From the NCBI GenBank assembly GCA_000469685.2, contig LS997565.1, positions 12,582,505 through 12,646,504 of the forward strand: a DNA stretch of 64,000 nucleotides. The letters are read 5' to 3'. Position numbers and translations under genes: made by a program. This DNA comes from Haemonchus contortus (Eukaryota > Nematoda > Chromadorea > Rhabditida > Trichostrongylidae). Below, in pieces: positions 52,478 to 62,021 of this stretch. Within the stretch, counting starts at the first letter, position 1, and each line of letters opens with the position of its first letter. Below the pieces are notes generated by a model. It was not told the origin of the DNA and did no database searches. It saw nothing but the letters and a program-made list of their open reading frames with translations.

Positions 52478-55400
52478 TCGTACTAGCGCCATAAGCTTCA
52501 GTCGACTGTTCCTCAGAGACATCATCGTAGCTGTACAAACGTGTTTTTCTTTCTGGGTCTGAAGTTAGTTTCCCAGCATCAGCGCCTGGGGAAAGGGGAA
52601 AATACATGATAAGTTCATGTTATTCTCCTTTCCTCACCTAATGTACTCAAAGTGGAGCGGATACCAGAGGATGAAGAAGATGACATAAATGTGGTGACTG
52701 TGTGATGTTGTCCCGCATCTGCATTTGCAAAAATCTCTACGGAGTCTACCAGTCCCAAAATTGTTCCCTAGAAACAAAACTCTATTGCTCACTTTTAGTT
52801 GCTCTCGAAGCTACTGATCTTCTGGTGAAATTATGACTCTGAGCCAACGACGATTTTTGCGTTGTTCCAAAGACTGCACTTATTTTTGTGGCATCGGCAG
52901 CTAAAAAATGAAGATAATTTTTTTTCATCAGATGAGTAGAAGAACGCCCTTCCTGATACGCTTGTGAAATTGACCCTATATGACGGTATTACGACAACTT
53001 TGAGGGGCAAGGCTATATTTGCTTACTCGTAGTCGTGTTTTTAACCAGGGTAGACTTTATGCCTATACTAGCGTCAGAGAGCGGGGACGATCGCTGCACT
53101 GCTTTGGAGCTTGTAATCACTGTTGTTGCATCGGTAGCTGGAACCAGCAAACTTTTCAAAAGCATTCCAGCGAAATGAAGAATAGCAGATGGAGGATTAG
53201 CATCCAATTACTTGTTGCAGCCTCTTCAGTCTCCATTGCATCTGCTTTGTTTTCAGTGGCGTTTGTGATAGGAGTCACGAATTGAGACGTAGTTCGGGTG
53301 ATTGCATAATATTCTCCTGCATCTGTGCCTGCGAAGAATTTCCCGTAGATGGGGGCTTCAAAACTGATAAAGAATATTCCTACTTGAAGGAGATCGTCTG
53401 GAGGACTTTGAAGCTGTGGATCCATGAGCGATGGTAGCGTTATGGATTAGCGACGATTCTTGGATAGTTTTAGAGCTTAGAGTTACCGTTGGAGCATCGG
53501 CGGCTGAATACAAAGAACATGAAATAGGTAGTTTTCACGCAACGCTAGAGAATAATGGAAAAATTTTTCCGATTTCGATCACTTGTTGTTGATTGGCCAG
53601 TTCCGGTCAACCGTAACGGGTCGTCCATATAGTGGACGGCTTGATGCGGAGGCAATGGAGTAGTGGTAGTTGAACGGTACTCCTCTGTAATGTGCCTTTT
53701 GTAAATTTCTGTAGAACAGAAGCTATGGGCCAGTCATGAAACAGTCCTAAGGAAGAGAGCTTCTTCGTTCACCTTTACTAGCCGCTTTGGATGGTTGAAT
53801 TGATGTAGACTTGTGAGTGGCTATTGTAGTATAAGCAGAAAGCGACTGCGGTTCAGTTTTGTAGGTTGTACCAACGTCTAAAAAGACATCAAAAAGGAAT
53901 ACGAGATGAGAGGTTAACTTTCGATTGCTTGTTGGAGACTGCTCACCTCTTTTCATTTCAGAAGGATTTTTAGTGGAGCTGACACTATGATATGAAGAAA
54001 GTGAAGTCATGTTGGTTGTGAGGTAATTCTCTGCAACTGTATTCTCGTCGAAGCTCCGTGGAACGGGAAGTATTAGATGTGGTTTCAGAACAAGCTTAGA
54101 AGAGAGGTTCTTGTGCTTACTTGAACTGGAGTTATTGGCTGATTCCAGTGATGCCAAATCCTCTGTGATATCAGTTCTGCGAACAAACGGTGACTGCGAG
54201 CTTGCTTTGTAGTTTGTATTCATTGTAGTAACCCCTAAATGTTACAAAATGTGCTTCACTGGAAAACAAGAGAGAAATACAGCTTTGCTTCAACTTCACT
54301 TGTCGTAGCTTGTTTAGCCTCTTTCAAGTCTTTGAGGCTCTTAAAGGAGCTGACACTGCGATTGGAAGAAAGTAAGCTCGCTGTGGTTGGCTGGTGTTCG
54401 CCTGCAACTGAACCTTGATGAGATCTAGCTAAGCAAATTCTAGGAGCTTTCAGTAGAGCAATCTGAGGGTTTTGTTCGTTTACTCGTAGTGGCGCTCTTG
54501 GCTGAATCCAGTGGTGTAGACTTGCTGACGACACTTGCACTATAAATTGTTGAGGACTTAGACGGTGTTGTAGAGCTTGTAGTCATCATTGTTGTATCAG
54601 TATCTACAAAGAAAATGGAGGTTACCAATGATATTTGCCTGCAGGGGTACCTCGACAAAGAGTTCATGAACTTTGCAAGTCAGTAAAAAAGAACATGGTC
54701 CTGTTTGCTTACATGCAGTGTTGGTTTCGCCTGCTTTCATTGTTGTAGACCTGCTAGTGGTACTAGCTTCAGAGATCGTTGAGGACTTATGCGTTGTTGA
54801 GAAGCTTGTGGTAGGCAATGTTGAATCAGTACCTACAAAGTCAATGACGGTTACAAATGATGCGTGCCTGCAACATTGGTTGAAATGAGTTCCTGTGGGA
54901 TGGATGTCGTGTACCGTCCATAATATGGCCCAAGGAACTATACTCTTTGTTCACTTGATGTTGTACCTCTGAATAATTCTGTTGACTTGCTAGTGGTAGC
55001 AGTAGTGTAGACCAGAGAAGATTGCGAAGATTGCGACGTCGTTAGGTAATATGGAACCCGCAGCGTTGTATCAGCACCTAGTGAGACAATGAATGTTACA
55101 AAATGAGTTTTCTAGGTGGTGGAAGAAAAAAGTTTAGTTTCAACTGCTTGTCATAATTCGCTTAGGTTCTTCCAGTTCTGATGGGAGACGGGCGTTAGGA
55201 ACGATTTTGGGTAATCGATTTGCCGCATGCGGCTGTCGCGGACCACTCATTCGCCGTTATTACAGCTCTAGCGTTCTTCATACAGCTCAATCGATATGCG
55301 ATCATTACTTTATGCATAATTCTACATTAGTACTTTTGTTCTTGTATTTCTTACCTACTGCTGCATCCTGCTACATTCCTTCGCGCGCGACGCCCCTCTC

Positions 55401-61400: not shown

Positions 61401-62021
61401 GTATCGATACCTTAAAAGGCAATAAAGGTCAGGAGTTATGGGGGCGAACTTGGAGCGGGAAAGGTTGATCAATAGTCACTTGTTGTAGGTTGCCCAGCTT
61501 TTGTCGTTTCTGATAGATTTCTGGGGAATTTCGAAGTGGTAGGTAACGAAGGCGAAGCAGTAACAGTGGTCTGATGGTGCTCGCGTACATCTAAGCCTGA
61601 AAGTTTCGGGAAAGGGAATTCATAAGAGTTTTCGCAAATCAGTTTGAGGGAATAAGTTTTTAACAGCTTACTTGTAGTGGTGATTTGAGCTGCTTCCGTA
61701 GGTGTGGAATTCTTAGTGATCCCAGCGCTGTAAGTCAAGGACGATTGAGGGGTCGTTGCGGAGCTAGTAAACAGCGGCGTCGTATCATTGCCTGAAGGGC
61801 AGTGGACCAACTAATTGCACTCCACAAGAATAAAGGAGAATAATTTCAATAACCTGTTTCTTCGCTTTCCGTCACGTTGAATAGGCATTCAACGGGACTG
61901 GGAGGGCAGGTCGTATAAATTATAGTGGGAGATTTGAAAGTGCAAATTGAAAAAAGCGAAGTGACAGATATGAAAGCGCAAGTTGAAAAAAGTGAAGCGG
62001 TAGTGGTTCCTGCAACTGTAC
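52478..62021 (-). CDS. mucin-like protein built from about 40 phase-1 exon cassettes
   Basis: On the minus strand, about 40 short exons (81-168 nt) run between AG acceptors and GT donors. In every intact one the frame enters after one base of a codon and leaves after one base, and the length is a multiple of three. Two types alternate. A exons read roughly G-T-D-T-T..T-T-S-S..S-S-x-I-Y-S-A..T-S-K-S-T..T-T-S. B exons read roughly A-G-E-H-H-T-T-T-V-T..S-S-K.P-S..E-A-E-Q-S-T-T-S. Together they would give about 1,500 residues, mostly Thr, Ser, Glu and Pro, with almost no cysteine or hydrophobic segments. This is the composition of heavily O-glycosylated, secreted or surface mucin-like proteins. 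Most exons begin G/A-T-D and end T-T-S, so splice junctions fall in the same sequence context. No signal peptide or 5' exon is found; the array decays at 62.1 kb. The 3' end may be 51575-51698. Resemblance to helminth surface or secreted variable antigens is inference. Confidence 0.75.
55148..55521 (-). CDS. B cassette interrupted by a MITE
   Basis: The acceptor CTTTTAG at 55522 opens a B-type exon (A-N-V-T-T-A-T-T-S-L-P-P-S-H-T-V-E-T-S-K-K-P-S-E-L). It is cut by the MITE 55185-55437 and resumes to 55148. Counting the 13-bp direct repeat once, the two halves total 108 nt, a multiple of three and a normal B-exon length. The following donor is GC (CAAGCAGTT), not GT. The exon is presumably lost from the mRNA now. 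Confidence 0.75.
55185..55437. mobile_element. 253-bp MITE inside a coding cassette
   Basis: Same family as 46702-46947. The ends GGCGTTAGGAACGATTTT and TTTCGTTCCTAACGC are inverted repeats. Flanked by CCAGTTCTGATGG at 55172-55184 and 55438-55450. Confidence 0.9.
55556..56084. mobile_element. 529-bp CAGT-ended MITE, second copy
   Basis: Starts CAGTAGCGGCGCTCAGAAGTAT and ends ATACTTTTGAGCGCTACTG. Homologous in inverse orientation to 39797-40321 (shared ATGTCTAAAGTGTACGAGCG, AGATTCCAGAAGG-type and CGTACTTTTCAGTCGTAACT blocks). Preceded by TA and followed by CA, so one target base has changed. In an intron of the cassette gene. Confidence 0.8.
56220..56740. other. longest gap inside the cassette array
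   Basis: No A or B cassette or repeat recognised between exons 56870-56751 and 56203-56117; a B unit would be expected here and may have been deleted. Confidence 0.4.
58270..58379 (-). pseudogene. decayed B cassette
   Basis: B-like (L-A-K-V-Y-D-T-T-S-A-A-M-S-V, then H-S-S-K-K-A-A) but with an in-frame TAG after A-A, and the donor has become AAATGAG in place of CAAGTGAG. Cannot be spliced normally. Confidence 0.6.
59216..59380 (-). CDS. fused B/A cassette exon
   Basis: One 165-nt exon with acceptor GTCATTACAG and donor GTGGGC, still phase 1 at both ends. Its first half reads like a B exon (A-T-T-A-T-T-T-L-S-S-P-R-Q-V-K-S-S-E-S). Its second half reads like the end of an A exon (V-Y-E-S-S-T-K-R-K-T-T-T-L-E-P-A-E-N-T-N-T-S). 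The simplest origin is a deletion that removed the end of a B exon, the intron and the start of an A exon without breaking the frame. Confidence 0.7.
60503..60617 (-). pseudogene. decayed A cassette
   Basis: Clearly A-type (T-D-T-T-L-L-N-T-S, then S-T-A-T), but the AG acceptor is shifted to TTAAG and the segment has about 115 nt instead of 120. A small deletion near ATATCGCTAG puts its two halves in different frames. It is probably skipped. Confidence 0.65.

Follow-up and report, generated by a model that had tools for sequence, protein, structure and literature searches.

What kind of gene would be built from dozens of small Thr/Ser-rich exons of two alternating types? A first-pass annotation of a 64,000-nucleotide stretch of the Haemonchus contortus genome (C4:12582505–12646504, hereafter the window; the genome comprises 283,439,308 bases in 7 contigs, and the V4 assembly is given as 283.4 Mbp, PMC7652881) had placed such a gene at positions 52478–62021, with about 40 exon cassettes of types A and B, and had suggested that it encodes a surface or secreted protein. 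The gene lies on the minus strand, and we added 200 kb and then 30 kb of sequence upstream of it, numbered in window coordinates extended beyond 64000 ('reg' coordinates). Comparing the array with its paralogues and homologues led us to conclude that the array very probably codes for the mucin-like extracellular stalk of a large H. contortus seven-transmembrane (7TM) receptor. With equally good confidence, we predict the order signal peptide, Cys-rich head, Ser/Thr-rich stretch, ~38 A/B cassettes, sushi-like domain, two EGF domains, 7TM core and long cytoplasmic tail. The array was confirmed, on the minus strand, but 52478–62021 is the stalk only, within a gene ~36 kb long, and the product is probably a surface protein, as part of a membrane receptor and not a free-standing mucin.

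Profiles of the two cassette types were seeded from the window and iterated, with matches of at least 14 bits and at least 25 amino acids counted as strong. Across 264 kb and three side loci there were 65 type-A and 83 type-B strong matches, all on the minus strand and none on the plus strand; lowering the cutoff to at least 8 bits yielded one plus-strand match. Four arrays were fully analysed: that of the window (U1), U2 (reg 94.5–102.8 kb plus four cassettes near 108 kb), U3 (reg 138.9–147.0 kb) and U4 (reg 235.0–244.2 kb). In the window, exon listing and profiles place ~38 alternating B and A Thr/Ser-rich cassettes with short introns at 52478–61791 (minus strand, as are all gene features below), of which 37 were recognised and one is a diverged terminal cassette. 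B exons are most often 120 nt long, most A exons of U1 measure 102–117 nt, and cassette exons in general are mostly 81–138 nt, with gaps between intact neighbours of ≤100 nt in 91 of 126 cases. The intact U1 cassettes encode ~1294 amino acids with 39% Ser+Thr and no cysteine, the long Ser/Thr-rich region typical of a mucin. A tandem-repeat finder run on the window detected no array here, because the copies are diverged and separated by introns.

The cassettes are overwhelmingly frame-neutral. An open phase-1 AG..GT pair was found for 35 of 37 window cassettes, and for 36/38, 30/31 and 37/40 in U2, U3 and U4, respectively, although the search behind these counts required phase 1, such that the absence of stops in intact cassette frames follows by construction. 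In a phase-blind test, which took the best generic acceptor and donor with no phase assumed, 103 of the 125 matches of at least 20 bits in the four arrays were phase 1/1 (compared with 152 of 1392 random placements), with 7 of the remainder lacking a candidate site in range and 15 having another phase pair. The proposed array of frame-neutral, protein-coding, Ser/Thr-rich exons in a nematode was therefore upheld.

The alternation of types is clear yet imperfect, with cassettes broken, fused or missing. Neighbours differ in type in 29 of 36 window pairs (shuffle mean 18.2, p ~1.5e-4), in 29/33 pairs in U2 (excluding the four outlying cassettes), in 21/30 in U3 (p 0.027) and in 32/39 in U4, so that the claim of some 40 exons of two alternating types stood in number and in tendency but not as a strict rule. 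The first clear B cassette of the window array (61672–61791, 120 nt) and its first A cassette (61480–61596, 117 nt) are both phase 1/1. Two B-A pairs that are reciprocal best matches follow at 60707–61410, a tandem duplication of a B-A pair in which the A copy at 61098–61202 lacks a phase-1 splice pair. Some irregularities are due to broken cassettes, such as the B cassette at 60510–60616, whose halves lie in different frames and whose U4 counterpart is likewise broken; to an open, fused stretch of 165 nt (59216–59380) in which half an A cassette and half a B cassette lack an intervening intron; and to a dispersed repeat (55553–56084, strand unassigned) in a 1.2-kb gap between cassettes, with 77–79% copies elsewhere in the 264 kb. 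The last B-type cassette (52478–52585) is diverged. An (AC)n repeat of 228 copies (63161–63613) occupies part of the long gap upstream of the array.

Comparing the units revealed further minus-strand exons in the same order outside the arrays. On the 5′ side, a signal-peptide-like exon directly following a TTTNCAG acceptor and conserved in three units lies upstream of a large, Ser/Thr-rich open frame of 431–482 amino acids with a Cys-rich head (reg 68182–69474 in U1, ~1.3 kb); the signal peptide and the first transmembrane helix (TM1) were judged by eye. On the 3′ side, a 42-nt phase 1/1 linker exon, GEMTQSAEIEETTS (51588–51629), whose P0002 counterpart is joined to the sushi-like exon in that model, is followed by 19 conserved exons, of which 19, 16, 19 and 18 were found in U1, U2, U3 and U4, respectively; the U2 tail region is partly covered by masked sequence. 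Spliced together, they encode a sushi-like domain (exons 50254–50365 and 50053–50155, the latter with an approximate end), a first EGF-like domain (49797–49928, 5′ splice site uncertain), a second (49586–49675 and, with a linker, 47476–47562), seven hydrophobic segments (TM1 at 47067–47177; helices 2–7 within 42483–46138, in exons near 45986–46138, 45724–45837, 45598–45669, 44002–44214, 43752–43856 and 42483–42551) and a cytoplasmic tail ending in FIQYSKAL (33449–42394, in exons 42209–42394, 41885–41986, 40455–40517, 38759–38836, 36679–36789, 33637–33696 and 33449–33517). Within this region, a ~190-base piece with a similar peptide, SIxDxFNxIxYLVNxxLKQ, occurs at 43041–43227 and at reg 90601–90788, and units 1 and 2 differ in where it sits with respect to the 7TM exons. 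The second tail exon also has an extra, stray copy (17763–17873, minus strand) ~24 kb 3′ of the gene's own, with 68% identity to P0002 residues 525–561 (E 1.2e-9).

The receptor part is predicted to adopt the seven-helix G-protein-coupled receptor (GPCR) fold of the adhesion type, based on an AlphaFold model from 14 sequences that we used for the helices only; a first model from 5 sequences (mean pLDDT 34.8) was discarded. No 7TM family was found when the 7TM was compared with the PDB (by sequence and profile), Pfam and NCBIfam (four proteins). The EGF assignment is supported by Pfam EGF_Teneurin above its cut-off and by matches to Notch EGFs (1.8e-9), giving the ectodomain the EGF modules of an EGF-TM7 receptor. 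For the sushi-like part, the cysteine pattern fits by eye, and H. placei P0013 is named 'Sushi domain-containing protein' in its source. No GAIN domain adjoins the 7TM, and none could fit, because only 298 nt separate the EGF exon from the TM1 exon (47476 versus 47177); the last EGF cysteine is 22–24 residues from the TM1 motif in P0001, P0002, P0007, P0014 and P0016.

Homologues place the array and the receptor within a strongylid family. Once spliced, the 3′ part of the gene matches H. contortus P0001 at 98% (86% of the query) and P0003 at 97% (43%), and searching with its peptide returned five proteins, in Haemonchus only, including models of the same arrangement. Profile searches added relatives in Cooperia, Trichostrongylus, Heligmosomoides, Necator and Ancylostoma, a restriction to strongylids that holds for these searches, which depend on shared 5-residue words. 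The homologues of Ancylostoma (Aduo_016360, Y032_0183g914), Necator (RB195_016035, P0017) and Heligmosomoides (P0009) have the 7TM in common with the window gene as well as the sushi-like and EGF parts (by eye, only half an EGF in Heligmosomoides), and Ancylostoma, Heligmosomoides and Necator P0017 also have a Ser/Thr-rich ectodomain, but A/B cassettes were recognised in none of them; the profiles scored in 3 of the 19 homologues scanned (P0005, P0011 and P0012). Ancylostoma ceylanicum P0016 has its own Ser/Thr-rich region next to sushi-EGF-7TM, with about eight repeats of ~37 residues (by eye), which appears to be a separate repeat expansion within the same receptor family. Because hookworm homologues have Ser/Thr-rich regions of their own, long Ser/Thr ectodomains seem to be recurrent in the family, the A/B cassettes being the Haemonchus solution. 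A C-type-lectin-like stretch suspected by eye in the hookworm homologues was unsupported by Pfam at E≤0.1. Residues 15–115 of Necator P0007 matched at least 50 sites spread over six Haemonchus contigs, with none from the window cluster among the matches listed (best 51 of 1107 candidates); because it matches so widely, we set this part aside as a probable fragment of a mobile element within the gene model. Among the matches listed in the open literature, judged by title and abstract start, we found no description of the family.

The window gene belongs to a tandem cluster. The TM5 exon (P0002 query ~328–414) is found at at least nine places in the genome, and of at least 71 matches to P0002 all those listed lie on C4 at 12.54–12.93 Mb, as does array DNA, the match counts being lower bounds (best 60 of 146 candidates scored). 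About nine paralogues thus sit together on C4, and the way they are ordered and spaced points to duplication of a four-gene block, with copies 177–183 kb apart, plus one extra gene. Using Nei-Gojobori dN/dS on order-matched pairs with both members intact and all others excluded (26, 24 and 34 of the 37 window cassettes for U1–U2, U1–U3 and U1–U4, respectively), we obtained for the U1, U2 and U3 pairs 0.21–0.33 in the 7TM, 0.26–0.35 in the tail, 0.27–0.43 in the EGFs, 0.42–0.64 in the sushi exons and 0.58–0.67 in the cassettes (bootstrap 0.47–0.83 over the three pairs; dS ~0.55), with 0.79 for U1–U4 cassettes (interval 0.58–1.04). Because dN/dS is higher there, the outer part is under less constraint than the core, with sushi and cassettes overlapping, and the stalk is among the fastest-changing parts of the gene. 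Indels keep frame more often in exons (9/15) than in introns (7/74). The best match lay in another unit for 32/37 U1, 33/38 U2 and 27/31 U3 cassettes, and of the five U1 cassettes that did not follow this pattern, four make up the duplicated B-A pairs at 60707–61410. Most cassettes are therefore older than the unit duplications, and recent unequal crossing-over, which had been proposed as a source of gains and losses, explains few of them; one or more B-A pairs were nevertheless acquired as a block.

Two of these paralogues, U1 and U4, are nearly identical except in particular places. Comparing reg 28–75 kb with reg 205–264 kb in 1-kb bins, identity was 98.0–99.8% at 30–49 kb, 98.4–99.3% at 62 and 64–66 kb and 99.9–100% at 70–73 kb, but fell to 82–96% at 50–61 kb (bins covering the array and its immediate 3′ flank) and to 89–96% around the 5′ exons at 67–69 kb, with minor dips at 29 kb (93%) and 74 kb (95%); the 63-kb bin was not comparable. 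Correspondingly, the 7TM had a dS of 0.005 and a dN of 0, and the cassettes a dS of 0.090 and a dN of 0.071. Since the array introns diverge too (8.8%, versus 7.3% for exons), the divergence is not solely due to amino-acid selection; either old array alleles were kept, or the flanks were homogenised, or arrays were exchanged. In the U2 pair, identity was 94–98% on the 7TM side, 81–95% in the array bins (95–102 kb) and 80–95% in bins 5′ of the array, and because divergence persists there the sharp peak of the U1/U4 pair becomes a step. We considered that the two copies of the gene block might be uncollapsed haplotypes. This origin may apply to the U1/U4 pair but is unlikely for the whole block: in the third pair, the part of the array that was compared shows ~20% DNA difference, and the first tail exon at its two places is 97% versus 84% identical to one and the same query (92% and 95% in the TM5 exon).

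Several observations weigh against the receptor-stalk interpretation. AlphaFold is confident over the helices only (mean pLDDT 55), and Pfam calls no 7TM in any protein scanned and, at E≤1, recognises a sushi-like domain neither in P0002 nor in the window gene. Proline makes up 5% of the cassettes, low for a classical mucin, and a cassette dN/dS near 0.6, overlapping that of the sushi exons, shows weak constraint only. The published models are annotations, not transcripts: P0012, P0005, P0001 and P0011 are incomplete, P0011 lacks the sushi exons along with the greater part of the large open frame rich in Ser/Thr, and signal peptide through tail is complete in no single model.

Among the alternatives, a variable-splicing antigen, with transcripts carrying different cassette subsets as in schistosome micro-exon genes, is possible but doubtful. 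Symmetric exons would allow it, broken cassettes persist, and two different partial tail models share one NCBI locus tag: P0001 and P0006 (V3C99_009294), which differ in tail exons in window 33449–40517, a hint of alternative tail splicing. Of 27 cassettes, 7 are missing from model P0012, but such an omission can arise in gene prediction. Symmetric phase-1 exons are described as the rule for shuffled extracellular modules (PMC8001218); because class 1-1 symmetry is usual in such modules, no special splicing programme is needed, and the cassettes are explained without alternative splicing.

That the array is decaying, with most cassettes dying and selection acting on the 7TM part only, is improbable. 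The cassette dN/dS of 0.58–0.79, the several broken or fused cassettes and the exon indels that are not multiples of three (6 of 15) are what decay would produce. Yet open frames and phase-1 sites (with phase 1 required) persist in nearly all cassettes of the four arrays despite the dS of ~0.55 between U1, U2 and U3. Moreover, the annotated H. placei protein P0011 has clear counterparts of 22/38 U2 cassettes, in the same order in 17 of 21 steps, and of 22/37 U1 cassettes (14 of 21 steps), a counterpart counting as clear if it scored 15 points more than the best of 20 shuffles; orthology is unproven per cassette because the cassettes are mutually similar. The same protein speaks against a non-coding satellite, an outcome that the first-pass annotation had named as fatal to its proposal.

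Two adjacent genes, a secreted cassette mucin and a separate downstream sushi-EGF-7TM receptor, are very improbable. The link between them comes only from annotated models, of 396 to 1180 amino acids, and some models begin at the linker or EGF (P0002 and P0001, the latter marked partial). However, cassettes and EGF are joined in one model in P0011 (H. placei) and in P0012 and P0005 (H. contortus), hence in two species; Ancylostoma models join a Ser/Thr-rich region to EGF-7TM; and phase 1 is kept from the last cassettes and linker exon into the sushi exon. In three units the conserved signal-peptide-like exon precedes the large open frame, whereas the unit comparison, which was no dedicated search, brought none to notice in the interval from the array to the sushi exons. 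A stand-alone secreted mucin was dropped, given the conserved exons on both sides of the array in three units (later also in U4).

Returning to the receptor, the cassettes, phases, downstream domains, GPCR-like fold, paralogue cluster and constraint difference, all read or directly predicted from sequence, allow us to picture how it may work. Heavy O-glycosylation, expected from composition and position, would stiffen and extend the stalk, which would keep the Cys-rich head away from the membrane, with sushi and EGF domains close to the 7TM core; the core may signal through a G protein or in response to a pull exerted via the stalk. With almost all of them in phase 1/1, cassettes could be duplicated, lost, broken and skipped, or swapped among paralogues without a frameshift, so that stalk length and sequence could evolve quickly while the signalling core is kept. 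A broader view, which we regard as speculative and rather unlikely as a whole, is that of a strongylid-specific adhesion-GPCR-like family whose ectodomain is a diversification module: cassette arrays would arise separately per lineage, recombine between tandem paralogues and alleles and perhaps be combinatorially spliced, under diversifying or balancing selection where parasite meets host, leaving near-identical signalling cores with different stalks.

Elsewhere in the window lie a (TATC)n tetranucleotide array (1944–6044; ~1025 copies, 99% matching, 4.1 kb) and a Pao-type retroelement (8103–13631, minus strand), whose 1842-amino-acid open frame, scanned in three pieces, matches DUF1759, reverse transcriptase, Peptidase_A17 and integrase zinc-binding domains.

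Known systems resemble this gene in part. Like membrane mucins it is rich in Ser+Thr (39%), with cassettes lacking cysteine, but mucin repeats are tandem repeats within one exon, whereas here they are separate, diverged exons of two alternating types with a seven-helix anchor. Compared with latrophilins (ADGRL; LAT-1 and LAT-2 in C. elegans), it lacks GAIN and has a sushi-EGF-mucin ectodomain instead. The EGF-TM7 adhesion GPCRs (ADGRE, such as CD97/ADGRE5) share its EGF modules and 7TM, but it differs in having no room for GAIN, a Ser/Thr stalk of ~1300 amino acids in ~38 cassette exons N-terminal to sushi and EGF, and a 7TM without a sequence match in Pfam or the PDB. Vertebrate leukocytes are known to carry EGF-TM7 receptors with mucin-like stalks (PMC8421042), whereas a 2026 review gives only three adhesion GPCRs for C. 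elegans, LAT-1, LAT-2 and FMI-1 (PMC13197933). Schistosome micro-exon genes, whose coding region is mostly small symmetric exons and which are said to appear restricted to platyhelminths (PMC4350168), share its symmetric small exons, signal peptide and fast evolution. The likeness to them first drawn does not extend further: these exons are symmetric but mostly 81–138 nt and thus not micro-exons, and they are joined to a ~1.3-kb open frame and 7TM exons in a nematode.

This tandem family, with about nine GAIN-less members in a major parasite of livestock and relatives in hookworms, is a candidate for a role in host sensing or at the surface. It would also offer a clean system for how symmetric exons let one domain evolve fast beside a conserved receptor core.

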